Shown: piece after piece, positions 5,538 to 35,770 of the stretch | Numbering within the stretch: the first letter of the stretch is position 1 | Layout of the letters: every line of letters begins with the position of its first letter | From: Nocardia ninae NBRC 108245 | GTDB taxonomy: Bacteria; Actinomycetota; Actinomycetes; Mycobacteriales; Mycobacteriaceae | Length of the DNA stretch: 64,000 bases | Direction of reading: 5' to 3' | Assembly (NCBI RefSeq): GCF_007990755.1 | Contig: NZ_BJXA01000035.1 | Location: 22,820 to 86,819, forward strand | Program-made: the position numbers and the translations under genes | Notes under the pieces: model-generated | What the model was told of the DNA's origin: nothing | What the model saw: only the letters and a program-made list of their open reading frames with translations | The model's database searches: none

Positions 5538-7724
5538 TCACGCCGGGTTCAGGGTCACCGGGACACCGTTGAAGACCGCGTTGCCCGACGGCACGTCGAC
5601 CACCGAATCATCGGTCAGCACATTGGCGTTGACGCCCGCGTGCGCCCGCGCCACCGTCTGCGTGCTGTCGGTGTGGCCCCAGCCGTGCGGCAGGCTCACC
5701 ACGCCGGGCATGATCGTCTCGGTCGGCTCCAGCGGCACCGTCAGCGTGCCCGCCGCCGACTTCACCACCGCGTGCTCGCCTAGCCCGAGCCGCGCCACAT
5801 CGGCCGGATTGATATGCAGCGTGCAGCGATTCGACCCGCTCACCAGCTGGCCGATGTTGTGCATCCAGCTGTTGTTGGACCGCAGCTGACGCCGCCCGAT
5901 CAGCACCACGTCCGGCGCGGTATCGGCCAACCGGGCCCGCATCCTGGCCACATCGTCGAGCAGCTGCCGCGGGGCGAGTTCCACCATCTTCGACTCGGTG
6001 CGCAGCGCGCCGGGCAGCTTCGGCTGCAACGGCCCGAGGTCGATACCGTGCGGATTGTCGAGCAGCACTTGCAGATTCAGCGTGCCGCCGTTCCATTCGC
6101 CGTACGGCCCGAGGCGAAGCATCAGGTCGAGGCGTTGTTCGGTGGTGTCGGCCCCGATCAATTCGCCGCGCCGGTCCGCCATTCCGGCTTTCTGCAGCAT
6201 GCCCGCGATGATCAGTTCGTCCACTCCGGTGAGCGGGTCCACCCCGTCCGCACCCTCGTGCGGCATGCCCGAGACCGCCGCGGCGAGGCGCGCCAGCACC
6301 CCCGACTCCGACGGGCGATCGCCGAGCGGCACCAACGGCCGGGAGTAACGGGCGTAGTTGTGCACCGCGAACTGCAGCAGGGCGAAGTCGTAGTGCGGCG
6401 ACTGCACCGGTCGCGGCGGCGGCAGGATCACGTCGGCGTGCCTGGTGGTTTCGTTGCGGTAGCGGTCCACGCTGACCATGAAGTCGAGCTGGGCGAAGGC
6501 GGCGTCGAGCCGGGCACCGCTCGGCGCGGAGAGCACCGGGTTGCCTGCGACCGTCACCAGCGCGCGGATCTGACCCTCGCCCGGGGTGAGGATCTCGTCG
6601 GCCAGCGTCGCGACCGGCAGTTCACCCATCGCCTCGGGCAGGCCCCGCACCCGGCTGGCCCAGCGGCCGAGCCGGAACGGCCTGCTGCGCGTGATTCCGC
6701 CCGCCGCCGCGGTGGCGAACATCGCCCCGCCCGGCGAGTCCAGGTTGCCGGTCAACGCGTTGATCGCATCGACGAGCCACTGGGTGATGGTGCCGAACTC
6801 CGCCGTGCAGGTGCCGATCCTGGCGTACACCGCCGCGGTCGGCGCGGCCGCGAGCTCGCGGGCGAGGCGGATCACCGTCGCCGCGGGCACCCCGGTGCGT
6901 ACCGCCACCGAGTCCGGGCTGAAGGCAGCTGCGGCCGTGCGCAGTTCATCGAGCCCGGCGACCTCGACCCGCAGGTCGGTGAGCTGCTCGGCGAACAGCG
7001 TGTGCACGATGCCGAACAGCAGGTACGCGTCGCTGCCCGGCCGGATGAACAGGTGCTCGTCGGCCAGCTTCGCGGTCCGGGTGACGCGCGGGTCCACCAC
7101 TACGAACCGGCCGCCGCGGCGCTGCAACGCCTTCAACCGCCCGGGGAAATCCGGTGCGGTACACAGTGACCCGTTCGACTCCAGCGGATTCGCGCCGAGC
7201 ATCAGCAGGTAGTCGGTGCGATCCAGATCCGGGACCGGCACCGTCAGCGGATCGCCGAACATCAGCCCGCTGGCCACCTGCTTGGGCATCTGGTCGGCGG
7301 TACTCGCCGAGAAAAGGTTCTTGGTACTCAATGCGCGCAGCAGCACAGGTACGTAGAGCGCCCCGGCAACGGTGTGTGCGTTCGGGTTGCCCAAATAGGC
7401 TGCCGCCGCCTGTTTTCCGTGTTCGGCGACCACCGCGGGAAAGCGTTCCGCGATCAGATCGAAGGCCTCGTTCCACGAGGCGGTCCGCCAGGTATCGGTG
7501 GCCCGGTCGCGAATCATCGGCTCGGTCACCCGATCGGGGTCCTCGTCGAGATGGCCGAAGCTCGCCCCCTTGGGGCAGATGAAGCCCTTGCTGAAGGGGT
7601 CCTGCTTGTCGCCGCGAACCGAGGTCACATGATCATCGGAATCGAGGGTGAGTTCGAGTCCGCACACCGCCTCGCAGAGCGGGCAGGTGCGCAACAGGTT
7701 GCGTGAATCCGTGATCGAGGCCAT
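5538..7724 (-). CDS. Molybdopterin-dependent oxidoreductase, formate-dehydrogenase/nitrate-reductase family
   Basis: DMSO-reductase-family enzyme of 728 residues. An N-terminal Fe4S4 domain holds cysteines C14, C17, C21 and C50 (CPLCEAVC ... FICPKG). The molybdopterin-binding core follows, with GNPNAHTVAG near residue 130 and GANPLESNGS near 200, and a C-terminal MopB_CT domain ends with the VVSLPHGWGH motif. The ATG at 7724 is preferred over an upstream in-frame start because GGGAGG lies just before it. No accessory subunit, FdhD or Mo-cofactor gene is adjacent, so this is a stand-alone cytoplasmic oxidoreductase. No twin-arginine signal is visible. The substrate cannot be told from sequence. 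Confidence 0.85.
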   Translation of the reverse strand: MASITDSRNLLRTCPLCEAVCGLELTLDSDDHVTSVRGDKQDPFSKGFICPKGASFGHLDEDPDRVTEPMIRDRATDTWRTASWNEAFDLIAERFPAVVAEHGKQAAAAYLGNPNAHTVAGALYVPVLLRALSTKNLFSASTADQMPKQVASGLMFGDPLTVPVPDLDRTDYLLMLGANPLESNGSLCTAPDFPGRLKALQRRGGRFVVVDPRVTRTAKLADEHLFIRPGSDAYLLFGIVHTLFAEQLTDLRVEVAGLDELRTAAAAFSPDSVAVRTGVPAATVIRLARELAAAPTAAVYARIGTCTAEFGTITQWLVDAINALTGNLDSPGGAMFATAAAGGITRSRPFRLGRWASRVRGLPEAMGELPVATLADEILTPGEGQIRALVTVAGNPVLSAPSGARLDAAFAQLDFMVSVDRYRNETTRHADVILPPPRPVQSPHYDFALLQFAVHNYARYSRPLVPLGDRPSESGVLARLAAAVSGMPHEGADGVDPLTGVDELIIAGMLQKAGMADRRGELIGADTTEQRLDLMLRLGPYGEWNGGTLNLQVLLDNPHGIDLGPLQPKLPGALRTESKMVELAPRQLLDDVARMRARLADTAPDVVLIGRRQLRSNNSWMHNIGQLVSGSNRCTLHINPADVARLGLGEHAVVKSAAGTLTVPLEPTETIMPGVVSLPHGWGHTDSTQTVARAHAGVNANVLTDDSVVDVPSGNAVFNGVPVTLNPA

Positions 7725-7986
7725 GCCACATCCTCCCGCGCTATGGCCGGTCTGAAAAGAGAACACGGGATATGCGACGCGGGTGGCAGCTACAACGACC
7801 GATACCCGCTACCTCTTCTTCGGACATCGAAGACGTGGTGCGGGTGTCCAGGGCGGCTACGGCGCCCTTCGTATCGACCGAGCGACTGCTGGAAGCAGAA
7901 CGACCGATACCGGAGCGCCGGGGCTGTCGACGCGAATCGGATATCGGTCGTGATGGCCGGGGTTGCCCCGGCCGTCGTTCAAACCT

Positions 7987-8481
7987 CTAGCAGGCGACGC
8001 TGGTGAGCTGGTCGCGCTTCTGCGCGGTCGCGGCCCGGACGGCGGCGCTGATCGCGACCACCGGCGGAACCCAGCGGGCCTCGCCCGGTGCGACACCCCA
8101 GCAGGCCGAACCGGCCAGCAGGTGGGTGGGCGGCAGCGGGACGGTCGCGCCGTCGGTGTGCACGATGGCACCCGCGGATGTCAGCGCCTCGAGCGCCATG
8201 GCGGCCTTGCGGACGCCGGTGACCAGGTGGATCTCGCGACGCTCCGCGCCGGGCAGTTCGATGACCGGGCCGGAAAGATTGTTCGCCCGCAAGAAGCGGC
8301 GAACCTCGCCGGCCAGCTCGCCGCTGACCTCGATGGCCGAAAGGTCGTCATCGGTGATCAGGCAGAGACCGTTGGCCGTTTCTGCGACCGTCCATCCGCG
8401 CTGGGTGTAGTCCTGCGCAGCGGCGGTCATAGCGGCCGCCGAGACGGAAGTCGGAAACGTGGTGCGCACTGTTCTCTCCAT
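7987..8481 (-). CDS. Hypothetical protein, possible small primase-polymerase-like domain
   Basis: A 164-residue soluble protein I do not recognise with certainty. It begins with a helix-forming segment AAAQDYTQRGWTVAET, similar in style to the ALxYAxRGW opening of bifunctional primase/polymerase N-terminal domains in actinobacteria, and ends with a PLPPTHLLAG...RWVPP region also seen in small proteins of that group. The acidic metal motif of active primases is not obvious, so even if related it may be inactive. The gene is monocistronic, with a 300-bp AT-richer region upstream. Confidence 0.5.
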   Translation of the reverse strand: MERTVRTTFPTSVSAAAMTAAAQDYTQRGWTVAETANGLCLITDDDLSAIEVSGELAGEVRRFLRANNLSGPVIELPGAERREIHLVTGVRKAAMALEALTSAGAIVHTDGATVPLPPTHLLAGSACWGVAPGEARWVPPVVAISAAVRAATAQKRDQLTSVAC

Positions 8482-31378: not shown

Positions 31379-31574
31379 AGTGCCCCCGTCCGCGCCGTCC
31401 CGAACTGCGGGCCCCTCGCGAGCGGTCGCGGCACCGGTCGGCTCAGGCGCAACCACAAGCGCATTCTCGCGGTTTCGCGAACCGCGCCGAGCTGGAGAGA
31501 TCACTGCGCGAGACTGTCCACTGAGCGATACATCTTTCCCCACAGGGAATTTCCGCAGTTGAGGGCGGCATAGA

Positions 31575-32072
31575 ATGAGCACCGTGCATCCAGAACCGAG
31601 TAGTCCCGTGGCCGAACCGAGGTGGCTCACCCCGGCGCAGCAACGGGCCTGGCGGGCCTATATGGATGGCCACCAGCGACTGATGACCGCGCTGAACCGG
31701 CAGTTACAGCGCGACAGCGACCTCAGCGTCGCCGAATACCGCATCCTGGTGCTGCTGTCGGAAGCGCCCGGGCGTGCCTTACGGATGAGCGAACTCGCCG
31801 ACGGCGTGCTCTCCTCGCGCAGCCGCCTCACCCACCAGATCCGGCGCCTGGAAGGCGAGCGCATGGTGCGCCGCAACACCTGCCTAGAAGACGGCCGCGG
31901 CGTCCTCGCCGAGCTCACCGACGAGGGCATGCGCCGCCTCGAAGCCGCCGCTCCCGGCCACGTCGAAGCCGTCCGCCGCGACTTCGTCGACCTGCTCACC
32001 CCGCACCAGCTAGAGGTCATCGCCGAAGTCTTCGCCCGCATCGATCAGGAAATCGGAACGCGCCCCCTCTGA
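31575..32072 (+). CDS. MarR-family transcriptional regulator
   Basis: 165 residues, with the winged helix at RMSELADGVLSSRSRLTHQIRRLEGERMVRRNTCLEDGRGVLAELT split over about 78-125. It is divergent from the quinone-oxidoreductase gene, the commonest arrangement for a MarR repressor sensing quinones or oxidative stress. No conserved redox cysteine beyond one Cys in the wing (NTCLED) is visible. No clear palindrome was found in the 196-bp intergenic region. Confidence 0.88.
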   Translation: MSTVHPEPSSPVAEPRWLTPAQQRAWRAYMDGHQRLMTALNRQLQRDSDLSVAEYRILVLLSEAPGRALRMSELADGVLSSRSRLTHQIRRLEGERMVRRNTCLEDGRGVLAELTDEGMRRLEAAAPGHVEAVRRDFVDLLTPHQLEVIAEVFARIDQEIGTRPL

Positions 32073-32096
32073 CCCGTCCGCTACCATCGTGGTCCT

Positions 32097-32181
32097 GGAG
32101 ACGTGGCAGAGCGGCCGAATGCACTCGCCTTGAAAGCGAGCGTCGAGAGATCGACCGGGGGTTCAAATCCCTCCGTCTCCG
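32097..32181 (+). tRNA. tRNA-Ser (UGA anticodon)
   Basis: A complete class-II tRNA cloverleaf. The seven-base acceptor arm GGAGACG (32097-32103) pairs with CGTCTCC (32174-32180). The anticodon TGA is at 32131-32133 in a loop closed by CTCGC/GCGAG, a long variable arm follows, and the T-arm has loop TTCAAAT. No CCA is encoded. The 3' part from the anticodon loop onward is duplicated 1,238 bp downstream, marking it as an integration site. Confidence 0.97.
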
Positions 32182-32189
32182 CAACAGAC
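32129..32189 (+). repeat. 61-bp direct repeat, left copy (att-like, inside tRNA-Ser)
   Basis: Bases 32129-32189 are identical to 33367-33427. The repeat covers the anticodon loop to the 3' end of tRNA-Ser plus eight bases beyond. One mismatch upstream, similarity continues for a few more bases. This is the usual extent of attL/attR for tyrosine recombinases that use tRNA genes. Confidence 0.9.
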
Positions 32190-32281
32190 GCCCAGGTCAC
32201 GCCGTTGGCCTGCGGCGTCCACGCGTTCGAATCGGCCGAACGGTGACCGTCTTGTCACGGTTTGTCACAACCGCGTCAAGA

Positions 32282-32304
32282 GCGGCGGCCCTACGGGCCG
32301 CCGC
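32282..32304 (+). terminator. Hairpin inside the tRNA-Ser element
   Basis: Perfect 10-bp arms GCGGCGGCCC and GGGCCGCCGC with a TAC loop. It lies about 100 bp after the tRNA and could terminate tRNA transcription. No T-run follows. Confidence 0.5.
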
Positions 32305-32525
32305 CGCCGCGCTCACGACGCGCAACGGGCCTACGCTCCGTCCCTCCGCCGCCCCGGCGCAGTCGGCGCGTCGGCGACGGCCCGTACGGCCGAGTGCCCC
32401 GCTCATCTACTAGGCTGACCTCTACCGCCATCGAGTAGCGCTGAGCACAGCGTTCGCCGTATCCGACCTGCTCTTCAGAAGCAGTGGTCGACTATGCCAG
32501 CGCCTCTGGTTGGCGCTCCGATGGT

Positions 32526-32870
32526 CTAGCGATAATCGCCCTCGCACTGGATCCCATGGAGCTCTGTCTTCGATATGTACGTCGTGATACACGCGATCTT
32601 TTCTCCGTCGACCGTGCCCCGGATATACACCTCCGGATGGGTCTTCTCCCCGTACTTGTCTTCACCGGCCTTCTCGAATTTGCCCGCCTCGGGCGCGCCA
32701 CCGACCGCCGAACAGTCATGGCCGTACACGCCACCGCCTGCCGGGAACACCAAGGCACACTCGTACCCCGGATCGGCAGCGTAGGCCGTTGAAGCGGTTG
32801 CTATCCACCCTGCACCAGCCAATGTGGCCACTGCGACCAAGGCAGTCATCCGGGCACGATCAAAGGACAT
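32526..32870 (-). CDS. Small secreted protein with four cysteines, cargo of the element
   Basis: 114 residues from the ATG at 32870 (GGGAA six bases upstream). A signal peptide ends at AYA-ADPG near residue 31. The mature part of about 83 residues has four cysteines (YEC, HDC, IAC, IQC), enough for two disulfides, and is rich in Gly, Lys and Glu. I do not recognise a family. It is the only clear gene within the tRNA-Ser direct repeats, so it is probably accessory cargo. An upstream in-frame ATG would add 11 residues. Confidence 0.65.
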   Translation of the reverse strand: MSFDRARMTALVAVATLAGAGWIATASTAYAADPGYECALVFPAGGGVYGHDCSAVGGAPEAGKFEKAGEDKYGEKTHPEVYIRGTVDGEKIACITTYISKTELHGIQCEGDYR

Positions 32871-33366
32871 AGCGGTTCCCGTCCGTCGAGGTGTACCAGC
32901 CAATCTGATTCACCGTACGTTCCCGTATTCGGAGCCGAACGCAGTCTGGATAGACAGAGCAGTGGTGCCACCTCGACACGACTAGGGAAGGGGGCAATGC
33001 TTAGGCGATTCGGTGATTGTCACGTTCTACCGATCGACGTGGCCGGGCTGGGTATCCGCCTCCTCATGGCCCAATGATCTGACTTCGCCACGGGAGAGTA
33101 AAGGGCGCTTCGCGTCGCTGCGCGATGCCTACGGCACCCTTGACTATCCCTCTCTCAGCACAGGATGGCCGGTATGAGGAAGCGGGGTTTCTAGGTGCCG
33201 GATAGACAACCTATCCGCGAAGGACCACGACAGGGTGATGGTGTCACGCAGGTGTCACAACTCGGCCATACGACCCCGGACACGACGAGACCCCCACGGA
33301 AGCATTTCGGCACTTCGCGTAGGGGAATGGACATCGGCAGACGACGAGCGGACCTCAGATATTCGA

Positions 33367-33427
33367 CTTGAAAGCGAGCGTCGAGAGATCGACCGGGGGT
33401 TCAAATCCCTCCGTCTCCGCAACAGAC
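33367..33427 (+). repeat. 61-bp direct repeat, right copy (att-like, tRNA-Ser 3' half)
   Basis: Identical to 32129-32189 but without a tRNA 5' half, so it encodes no functional tRNA. It runs directly into the terminator at 33425-33454, which suggests that this copy is the original chromosomal 3' end of the tRNA gene. Confidence 0.9.
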
Positions 33428-33454
33428 CTTGACCTGAACCAGCAGGTCAAGGTC
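33425..33454. terminator. Terminator at the liv operon end / former tRNA-Ser end
   Basis: Perfect 12-bp arms (33425-33436 and 33443-33454) with a six-base loop sit nine bases past the livK-type stop on the minus strand. It overlaps the right repeat by three bases. Before insertion it would have followed tRNA-Ser directly. Confidence 0.75.
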
Positions 33455-33462
33455 GTGCGCGG

Positions 33463-34713
33463 CTACTTGCCGGTGTTGATCAGGTCGCCGATGAGCGTCC
33501 AGTGGTCACCTTCGAACTTCTGGATCCGCATGGCTTCGAGCGGGAACGCGTCGCCGGGGCCGGTCTTCACGGTGATGCCGGGCAGCAGCAGGCCGATATC
33601 GATGTTGTCGAGGGCCCGCATGGCGTCGCGGAGTCCTTCGCGGGTGGGGCATTTCGCCGCTTCCATGGTCTTGTGGAAGGTCTGCGCCATCGCCCAGCCG
33701 ACGGCCGTGTACTGGTTGGTGGGGTCGGCGTCGCGGGTGTACTGGGCCACTTTGTCCCGGTAGGTGCGCATGCCGGCGTCGGCGTCCCACTGCGCGTCGG
33801 CGGGGTCCTTCATGAACGCGACCGACACCACGTTCTGCACATTCTGGAAGCCGACCTGCTTGAGCATGGTGACGCTGTTCGCTACCTGCGCGAGGATGTG
33901 CAGCGGGTTCCAGTCGGTGTTGCGTGCATCGGCGGCCAACGCCTGCGACGCGAACTTAGGGGTCGAGAAGTTCAGCAGCACATCGGCTTTCGTGTTGGCG
34001 AGATTGCGCAGCTGCGGTTCCACGGTCGGGTCGGTGACCTCGTAGCTCTGCTCACCCACGATCTTGATGCCGCTGCCCGCGACGGCCTCGGTGAAGCTGG
34101 TCAGCAGGTCTTTGCCGAAGTCGTCGTTCTGGTAGAGCACCGCGACAGTGGCGTTGGGCCGCTGTTCGCGGACGTAGCGTGCGAACGCCTGCCCCTCGGC
34201 CCGATAGCTGGGCTGCCAGCCGATGGTCCAGGGGTGTTCGGTGTCGCTGCCCCATTTGGTCGCACCGCCCGCGATGAACGCCTGCGGCACCTTCCGCTGA
34301 TTGAGGTAGTCCCACACCGCGGCCGAGGTCGCCGTGCCCAGGGTGGAGAAGACCGCGAACACCTGATCCTGTTCGACGAGCCGCCGGGTTTCCTCCACCG
34401 TTTTGGGCGGCTGGTAACCGTCGTCGCGGATCAGGAACTCGACCTTGCGCCCGTCCACCCCGCCTTGCTCGGCATTGACGTAGTCGAAGTACGCGCGCAC
34501 GCCCTTGGGCAGTTCGCCGTAGGCGGAGGCGGGCCCGGACAGCGGGTAGACGCCGCCGAGTTTGAGGCTTGTCTCGGTGATGCCGGTGGTCTGCTGCCCC
34601 TTGCAGTCGCCCTGTCCCACGGTGCCGCCGTCTTCGCCGCGGCCACCGCAGGCGGTCGCCGTGAGCAGCACGGCCACCGCCGCTCCCACGGCTCGGATCG
34701 CCTTAGTGCGCAT
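33463..34713 (-). CDS. Branched-chain-amino-acid-type ABC transporter, substrate-binding lipoprotein
   Basis: 416-residue LivK-like periplasmic-binding protein. A signal peptide ends in the lipobox TATAC, so Cys22 should be lipidated. The type-I fold starts at LKLGGVYPLSGPASAYG and shows DDGYQPPKTVEETRRLVEQDQVFAVFSTLGT, the usual hinge and ligand region. The specificity is not readable; liv-type systems next to PucR regulators may import amino acids, amides or urea derivatives. It is last in the livG-F-H-M-K operon and overlaps livM by 11 bp. Confidence 0.88.
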   Translation of the reverse strand: MRTKAIRAVGAAVAVLLTATACGGRGEDGGTVGQGDCKGQQTTGITETSLKLGGVYPLSGPASAYGELPKGVRAYFDYVNAEQGGVDGRKVEFLIRDDGYQPPKTVEETRRLVEQDQVFAVFSTLGTATSAAVWDYLNQRKVPQAFIAGGATKWGSDTEHPWTIGWQPSYRAEGQAFARYVREQRPNATVAVLYQNDDFGKDLLTSFTEAVAGSGIKIVGEQSYEVTDPTVEPQLRNLANTKADVLLNFSTPKFASQALAADARNTDWNPLHILAQVANSVTMLKQVGFQNVQNVVSVAFMKDPADAQWDADAGMRTYRDKVAQYTRDADPTNQYTAVGWAMAQTFHKTMEAAKCPTREGLRDAMRALDNIDIGLLLPGITVKTGPGDAFPLEAMRIQKFEGDHWTLIGDLINTGK

Positions 34714-35770
34714 GGGTTTTCCCTTTCCGAAGGAGGTTTTCCAGCCAGCGCGCCGCCCGACCGATGAGCCCGGCCAATCCGTTCGGCGCGAGGTACATGA
34801 CCGCGATGATCAGCAGTCCGAAGATGACGCCCGGCGCGGCCTGGTTGATGTCCTGGGCGAAGCTCGGCACGTACAGCACGAACAGCCCGCCGAGCAGCGG
34901 TCCCCACTGGGCGCCGAGCCCGCCGACGACCAGTCCGGCCAGCAGTGTGATCGACAGCCCGACCGCGAACGAGTCGGGGGAGACGAAGGCGATCACCCAG
35001 GTGTAGACACAGCCCGCGACGCCGGCGAGCATCGCGCTCCAGGCGAAGGCGAGCGTCTTGTAGAACGCTGTGCGCACGCCGAGCATCTCCGCGGCGATCT
35101 CGTTGTCCCGGATGGCGTGTAGTGCGCGACCGACCCGCGATCTGAGCAGTCCCGCGACGAGCAGGAAGCACAGCCCGGTGGTGACCAAGGCCAGAAAGTA
35201 CAGCCACTGGTCCTCGGCCAGCCCGGTCCATTGCGGCGGCAGGGGTTTGGTCAGGGTCAGCCCCATGGACCCGCCGGTCAGCGTCTCGAATCGCTTGAGC
35301 AGCGGCACCAGGAAGATCGCGATGGACAGCGTGACCAACGCCAGATAGAGCCCGCGCAGCCGGAGCGCGGGCACGCCGAGCGCGAAGCCGAGCACGAACG
35401 CCACCAGCGCCGCGACCGGCAGCGTCGCGAGATACGGTGTGTCCCAACGGTTCATCAGCACCGCGGTGGTGTAGGCGCCGATGGCGAAGAACGCGCCGTG
35501 TCCGAGTGAGATCTGACCGGTATGTCCCACCAGCAGATTGAGCCCCACCAGGGCGATCGCGTAGATCATCGCCATCGCGAGCTGGAAGGTGCGAAACGGC
35601 ACCAACTGGAACGGCGCATAGCAGGCGAGAACGATCACCGCGGCTACCGCGAGCCATCGCCAGTGTTGTGCCGCGAGTCCGCGCAGCGATGTCTTCCGTG
35701 GTGGCACAGCCTGTTGCACAGCGAGTTCGGCGGTCACCGTCTCGGTGACCGGCTTGGTGGTGTCGCTCAT
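34703..35770 (-). CDS. livM: LivM-type ABC permease
   Basis: 355 residues, with an N-terminal soluble stretch of about 38 residues and then roughly ten membrane helices. Family motifs include LNLLVGHTGQISLGHGAFFAIGAY (about 93-116) and the EAA-like loop ALHAIRDNEIAAEMLGV. It forms the membrane channel with LivH. The start overlaps the livH stop by four bases as ATGA. Confidence 0.92.
   Translation of the reverse strand: MSDTTKPVTETVTAELAVQQAVPPRKTSLRGLAAQHWRWLAVAAVIVLACYAPFQLVPFRTFQLAMAMIYAIALVGLNLLVGHTGQISLGHGAFFAIGAYTTAVLMNRWDTPYLATLPVAALVAFVLGFALGVPALRLRGLYLALVTLSIAIFLVPLLKRFETLTGGSMGLTLTKPLPPQWTGLAEDQWLYFLALVTTGLCFLLVAGLLRSRVGRALHAIRDNEIAAEMLGVRTAFYKTLAFAWSAMLAGVAGCVYTWVIAFVSPDSFAVGLSITLLAGLVVGGLGAQWGPLLGGLFVLYVPSFAQDINQAAPGVIFGLLIIAVMYLAPNGLAGLIGRAARWLENLLRKGKTHAH

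Follow-up and report, generated by a model that had tools for sequence, protein, structure and literature searches.

A probable AICE remnant at a tRNA-Ser(UGA) gene of Nocardia and the conserved DNA hairpin that it carries

Introduction

To our knowledge, the DNA biology of replication and transfer in AICEs and actinobacterial plasmids is poorly mapped. The known single-strand origins (sso) are non-coding and form hairpins. AICEs are recognized by their int, rep and tra genes and by att repeats which are usually found at the 3′ ends of tRNA genes, and remnants of such elements are mentioned as well (PMC3218068, in the excerpt available). Elements which have lost the genes for integration and transfer and retain attL and attR are defined as CIMEs (excerpt of PMC5704250), whereas for the plasmid pIJ101 a single-strand origin and a 12-bp sps palindrome have been described (excerpt of PMC4170104). 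Here, we analyze a small element integrated at a tRNA gene in a stretch of 64,000 nucleotides (hereinafter, the window) from Nocardia ninae NBRC 108245, the genome of which comprises 9.7 Mb in 204 contigs.

Results

Insertion at tRNA-Ser(UGA)

The target gene, tRNA-Ser(UGA), is located at positions 32097–32182 on the plus strand of the window and was called as a complete tRNA by ARAGORN, with an Rfam tRNA match of 57.4 bits. Its 3′ half lies within attL (32129–32189, plus strand), one copy of a 61-bp direct repeat of which the other copy is attR (33367–33427, plus strand). Re-comparison of the two copies revealed no differences over the 61 bp, and in the extended 65-bp alignment (32125–32189 versus 33363–33427) there is one mismatch, far above chance similarity. 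Both the perfect repeat at this tRNA and the full tRNA in its left copy had been noted in the original prediction. In the right copy, no tRNA was called by ARAGORN. The prediction further held that the right copy runs into the terminator of the tRNA; the perfect inverted repeat is indeed there (33425–33454, plus strand, with 12-bp arms at 33425–33436 and 33443–33454), but it is absent from the list produced by a simple terminator scan, so that the label derives from its position and the inverted repeat. The inverted repeat probably represents the terminator displaced from the tRNA.

When 148 genomes of the genus were searched, the longest match to the flanks of the element came from genome G079, where the site is empty. 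Window positions 31500–32189 correspond to positions 5866–6555 of the G079 locus (98.1% identity) and positions 33363–35000 to 6491–8128 (97.0% identity), the two alignments sharing one 65-bp copy of the repeat (6491–6555), and the inverted repeat is found directly 3′ of the tRNA. This junction, which agrees with the site-specific insertion predicted originally, indicates that the 1,238 bp represent such an insertion and not a tandem tRNA duplication. They were gained in the lineage of the window or precisely lost from G079.

Integrase remnant and candidate arm sites

The left end of the element carries the last 26 codons (DAVVTNRDKTVTVRPIRTRGRRRPTA) and the stop codon of a tyrosine integrase gene (32197–32277, minus strand), with 69% identity over 35 aa to residues 373–407 of an integrase from genome G065. 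Hence, of the claim that the interior has one clear gene and no recombinase sequence, the first part holds and the second does not. In G065 and G117, tRNA-Ser(UGA) is followed by a convergent gene for a 407-aa tyrosine integrase, which ends 12–14 bp from the tRNA; the two int genes are 91% identical, and in the stretches fetched the contig end is reached before any second repeat. Relative to tRNA-Ser(UGA), the remnant in the window occupies the expected place and strand. Relatives of this integrase (E ≤ 1e-20) are encoded in 68 of the 148 genomes, many of them being ~30–40% identical, and those at least 84% identical to the G065 query are three, namely, G065 itself, G117, and G016.

Repeats of the TGTCAC / TGTCACAAC type are present at both ends of the element. 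Those of the left end (32253–32271, plus strand) are shared by most sequences of the left-end alignment, L041 being an exception, and those of the right end (33242–33261, plus strand) in the alignment with L048, L049, L056, and L057, with a one-base variant in L049. We infer that these pairs are putative arm-type integrase sites. In G047 (L038) and G008 (L041), tRNA-Ser is likewise followed by sequence from the left end of this type of element, with broken int-like pieces discerned by eye in the former; in both, a second repeat is absent from the fetched stretch. These loci are possibly further decayed insertions.

Interior segments and the putative deletion joint

The int-type sequence abuts sequence typical of AICE ends at 32272–32277, where the two share a short TCAA. 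Matches of the int type stop at 32274–32277 (L036, L038, L042, L056, and L057), and those to AICE ends begin at 32276 (L035, L040, L043, and L047). Two non-coding segments of the latter kind were delineated. Segment A (32276–32393, plus strand) is 97% identical to L035 (G065:C190), 79% to L040 (G040), 78% to L047 (G076), and 76% over 101 bp to L043 (G108); segment B (33026–33221, plus strand), which includes a conserved hairpin, is 94%, 88%, 80%, and, over a partial match, 88% identical to the same four loci, respectively. All four loci contain the segments in the same order, separated in the alignments by ~66–187 bp versus 632 bp in the window. AICE genes are located near the segments in L035, L040, and L043, and the 12 kb fetched around those of L047 contain no AICE marker gene. 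In L040, int adjoins a tRNA-Cys gene and is followed by a RepSA-like gene, with the segments ~5 kb from the tRNA on the other side of rep; the gene beyond them is taken as chromosomal, and the attR of this element was not located. This layout places segments A and B at the attR-side end of the AICE. For L035, the locus most similar to segment A, the fetched 12 kb include no tRNA. The rest of the right end (33240–33423) is ~81% identical to element ends in G016, G117, and G136.

The simplest reading appears to be a single internal deletion between the 3′ end of int and the far end of an AICE. Among the matches listed in the search of 148 genus genomes, none except the window itself crosses the deletion joint.

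Related elements at the same tRNA

A full-length relative is available in G016:C30, where two copies of the repeat lie 11,126 bp apart and enclose an 11.1-kb element. Its integrase (PF00589) is 84% identical to that of G065, and the Pfam scan further recognized RepSA (PF20199, E 1.4e-89), an FtsK/SpoIIIE protein of the FtsK/TraB type (PF01580), a DUF2637 protein, and a GntR regulator, whereas an excisionase-like HTH_17 protein scored just below the curated cut-off and two of the eight proteins scanned gave no Pfam match. The presence of int, rep, and tra genes and of att repeats identifies the element as an AICE in the terms of the excerpted PMC3218068. It has in common with the window only the final ~180 bp of the right end and not segments A and B. 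Two further remnants occupy the same tRNA: that of G136 spans 1,506 bp and contains an 83-aa piece of a truncated int, and that of G095 spans 2,868 bp with a 90-aa piece. In the latter (G095:C175; L057/L072), an open reading frame resembling a NUDIX hydrolase was noticed by eye.

Putative cargo gene

The clear gene of the interior (32526–32870, minus strand) encodes a small protein of 114 aa with four cysteines and, as judged by eye from the translation, a signal-peptide-like N-terminus. It is probably secreted cargo. Its Pfam match is below threshold, and assignment to a known family was rejected for this reason; indeed, no Pfam match above the cut-off was obtained for this frame or for ten further frames of the element. 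Relatives are encoded in 3 of the 148 genomes, including the source genome, which also encodes a 36% identical paralog. In G076 (L047, 5167–5730), a different small protein of the secreted type is encoded beside segments A and B, and its locus and the window have in common an 84-bp stretch of 82% identity around the beginning of the secreted-protein gene. The different protein combined with this similarity suggests that this AICE end may serve as a cargo slot.

A conserved hairpin with a cloverleaf-like core

Segment B contains a conserved structured non-coding element (33057–33189, plus strand), which matches a 133-position model (R1) with 156.5 bits, the window copy being itself a member of the model. 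Folding and parsing delineated a cloverleaf-like core (33098–33144, plus strand), in which 8-nt arms (7 of 8 positions paired in the window) surround three abutting mini-hairpins, CGC-TTC-GCG, TCGC-TGC-GCGA, and TGCC-TAC-GGCA.

Covariation was assessed in 14 Nocardia copies; AICE marker genes occur in the vicinity of 8 of the 13 copies other than that of the window. In the 40-pair structure, 93.5% of cells are paired, a figure that benefits from the derivation of the structure from the window copy and an earlier consensus, and 10 of the 40 pairs are changed on both sides (22 such cells). None of 500 shuffles attained the values for cells paired, both-side pairs, or both-side cells, and sliding the partner by 1–3 columns lowered the pairing to 36–46%; the measure of further pair types was not significant (93 of 500 shuffles). 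Covariation thereby provides the conserved secondary structure relevant to an sso or oriT reading of 33057–33189.

Of 113 unique copies of the core collected by BLAST and pattern search, 106 can be parsed into three hairpins, and in 73 every hairpin has a TNC triloop, compared with 0 of 2,260 shuffled cores. Most of hairpins 1 and 2 was prescribed by the search pattern, which makes the 39 copies obtained by BLAST the less biased sample; of these, 33 parse, 28 lack any spacer between hairpins, and 18 display three TNC loops. The third hairpin is represented by more than 15 stems of differing sequence, which constitutes independent support. The outer arms provide further support of this kind: among 33 copies with distinct arms, 18 have a native pair that outperforms no fewer than 95% of the swapped combinations. 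The window copy fails this test, with 46 of 50 swapped combinations pairing as strongly, and numerous Nocardia copies besides it fail likewise. Its folding energy is likewise not significant (z −0.5 to −1.7), compared with z values of −3.3, −9.1, and −11.1 for three plasmid copies. Given the weak energy in the window, the case for the hairpin rests on covariation and the other copies.

The loops read TNC on the plus strand and cGNAg on the minus strand. Triloops of the cGNAg type are unusually stable in DNA, and their presence may point to a function in the single-stranded state. An assignment of the cloverleaf to one strand was dropped, as AICE and plasmid contexts pointed to opposite strands.

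A known RNA family was rejected for the hairpin, because within 32000–33600 the tRNA alone passes an Rfam gathering score. For nine loci with cloverleaf copies, the seven Rfam matches at E ≤ 0.1 are all below the gathering scores and none is at the core. A description of the cloverleaf or of an AICE sso was not found in the open-licence literature; the main text of PMC11541004 mentions neither actinobacteria or actinomycetes nor a hairpin or stem-loop. The class may therefore be new.

Distribution and genomic context of the hairpin

BLAST searches with the hairpin yielded matches, many of them partial, in 51 of 150 genomes of the genus, and under strict filters a scan of the family produced a model match at E ≤ 0.001 in 12 of 151 genomes. 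We inspected 29 chosen Nocardia loci besides the window, counting as AICE genes int, rep, tra, DUF2637, and a conserved AICE protein, with GntR and relaxase genes left out. Such genes are present at 16 loci, among which are two pairs that look like near-duplicates (L045/L046 and L249/L250); relative to the hairpin, they occupy the opposite strand in all 16 and the same side in 15. This fixed orientation is compatible with a role as an sso or a transfer origin.

Matches to the core at E ≤ 0.1 were obtained in 20 plasmid records, the genera of which we take to belong uniformly to Actinomycetota. In 7 of the 15 records for which the surroundings were inspected, mobC or a relaxase gene is located within ~3 kb on the opposite strand. 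The Nocardia-built model was given a set of 20 preselected loci and matches all of them at E ≤ 5e-4, 13 over its full length. An exact pattern scan across genomes of 84,980 species returned 86 stretches. Of the 80 that were listed, 78 have actinobacterial titles, and thus presumably stem from that phylum, and 2 belong to metagenome bins of other phyla; of the marker genes tried, several of them unspecific (resolvase, integrase, GntR), at least one is found near 33 stretches, and none near 47.

The Curtobacterium plasmid D03b (L106) comprises 1,579 bp with the core at 760–808, and its only listed gene encodes a CopG-family protein, a minimal context for the core. In the 132,838-bp linear plasmid of Streptomyces sp. 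NBC_00663 (L116), the core lies ~600 bp from one end; telomeric palindromes are to be expected near the ends of linear plasmids. Two copies in opposite orientation, ~600–800 bp apart, were observed in L093, L103, and L257/L258 (G000:C111), the second copy in G000:C111 being weak (E 0.05).

Discussion

Origin of the element

We consider it highly probable (about 90%) that the element is a decayed AICE of the pSAM2 type, integrated at tRNA-Ser(UGA) and later stripped by an internal deletion to a CIME-like remnant. The observations behind this reading are the empty site of a relative, the 3′ remnant of int, the AICE-end sequence of the interior, and an AICE between the same repeats elsewhere (G016). 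An AICE-type element would have entered the 3′ half of the tRNA gene by means of its own tyrosine integrase, generating attL, with the intact tRNA, and attR as the 61-bp repeats. A subsequent deletion would have extended from the last int codons to just inside the attR-side end and removed nearly all of int along with the xis, repSA, tra, and gntR region, leaving two att sites, the putative arm sites, the secreted-protein gene, and the conserved hairpin; integration followed by deletion is the presumed order. A relative with the exact pre-deletion element was not found in the 148 genus genomes, so the parent is pieced together from parts in different genomes. The resulting element would be immobile by itself; mobilization would require a related AICE, either as a source of integrase in trans or as a neighbor integrated alongside.

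The second option left by the original prediction, a very small element moved in trans, found no positive support, unlike decay, which is supported by the int remnant and the AICE-end sequence. A non-autonomous MITE- or IME-like element, integrated when already small by an AICE integrase acting in trans through its att and arm sites, would account for the retention of attL and attR and of the candidate arm sites at either end, and for the three small elements without intact int that occupy the same tRNA, with both repeats present, in different genomes. The three differ, however, in size and in int breakpoint (26 codons, 83 aa, and 90 aa), as expected of independent decays. Moreover, the searches for further copies and for a trans-acting recombinase in the source genome were both negative: the whole element occurs there once, the three other matches being short and partial and including two copies of the hairpin, and the integrase search gave three matches, none of which exceeds 31% identity to the cognate type. 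With the recombinase reduced to a remnant and no joint shared among the matches listed for the 148 genomes, a mini-element is improbable.

Tyrosine integrases and tRNA targets also fit phages. A prophage or phage-satellite origin, with which these general features would agree, is nevertheless very improbable in view of the RepSA, FtsK/TraB-type, and DUF2637 proteins of the full-length G016 relative. It was rejected after distant blastn of 32060–33480 against 50,697 phage records, which gave matches confined to the tRNA and its edge (two records, query positions 35–129), and the pattern of the hairpin core had no exact match in the IMG/VR contigs. The alternative that the 3′ half of tRNA-Ser was long ago duplicated in tandem around an unrelated spacer, favored by nothing beyond the direct repeat itself, is contradicted by the empty site of G079 and by an interior made up of AICE-end sequence and the 3′ end of int, and can be dismissed as the least probable explanation.

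Significance

Decay of an AICE thus appears, on sequence comparison, to account for the locus, which offers a clean case of reduction to little beyond the tRNA attachment sites, with an empty site in a near relative and differing decays elsewhere. The wider point, and the part worth following up, is the structured DNA that was kept. Perhaps the hairpin functions as a single-strand origin or transfer site. Tentatively, and with somewhat less than even confidence, we propose that it represents an undescribed class of structured DNA, a ~133-nt imperfect hairpin with a four-way cloverleaf core of three mini-hairpins mostly without linkers, which would be common to AICEs, MOBP conjugative and mobilizable plasmids, and linear and tiny cryptic plasmids of Actinomycetota and would act on single-stranded DNA as a start for the second strand or as the site of transfer or entry; on this view, the remnant would amount to a relic acting in cis only, equipped with its integration sites and this site. 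If the cloverleaf is the sso or transfer site of AICEs and actinobacterial plasmids, it would provide a simple sequence marker and a testable cis-acting site.

Comparison with known systems

The window element is a remnant and not an AICE: the integrase, replication initiator, and TraB/FtsK translocase that are all present in G016 are lacking. It resembles AICEs, as these are presented in the excerpt of PMC3218068, in the target at a tRNA 3′ end, the direct-repeat att sites, the position of int beside the tRNA, and the existence of a relative that encodes RepSA together with an FtsK/TraB-type protein. Unlike them, it has lost the rep, tra, and regulator genes and retains just 26 codons of int.

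The element is only 1.2 kb long, which sets it apart from CIMEs, most of which are larger than 1.2 kb. Otherwise, it has the properties of this class as given in the excerpt of PMC5704250: attL and attR are kept, as witnessed by the perfect repeat and the G079 empty site, and the genes for integration and transfer are lost save for the end of int. Decay from an ICE or IME is apparent from the int of tRNA-Ser elements at the left end and the AICE ends in the interior, the intact parent being inferred. By definition, therefore, the element fits a CIME-like status, with putative mobilization in cis, and is ordinary in kind.

The hairpin differs from described sso in its cloverleaf-like core, which is absent from Rfam. 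Set beside them by description, it is nevertheless similar to the sti/sso of pIJ101 (PMC4170104) and the sso of ICEBs1 (PMC4595007), both from rolling-circle systems, in being non-coding and hairpin-forming and in its fixed orientation to the rep and tra genes at the AICE loci examined.
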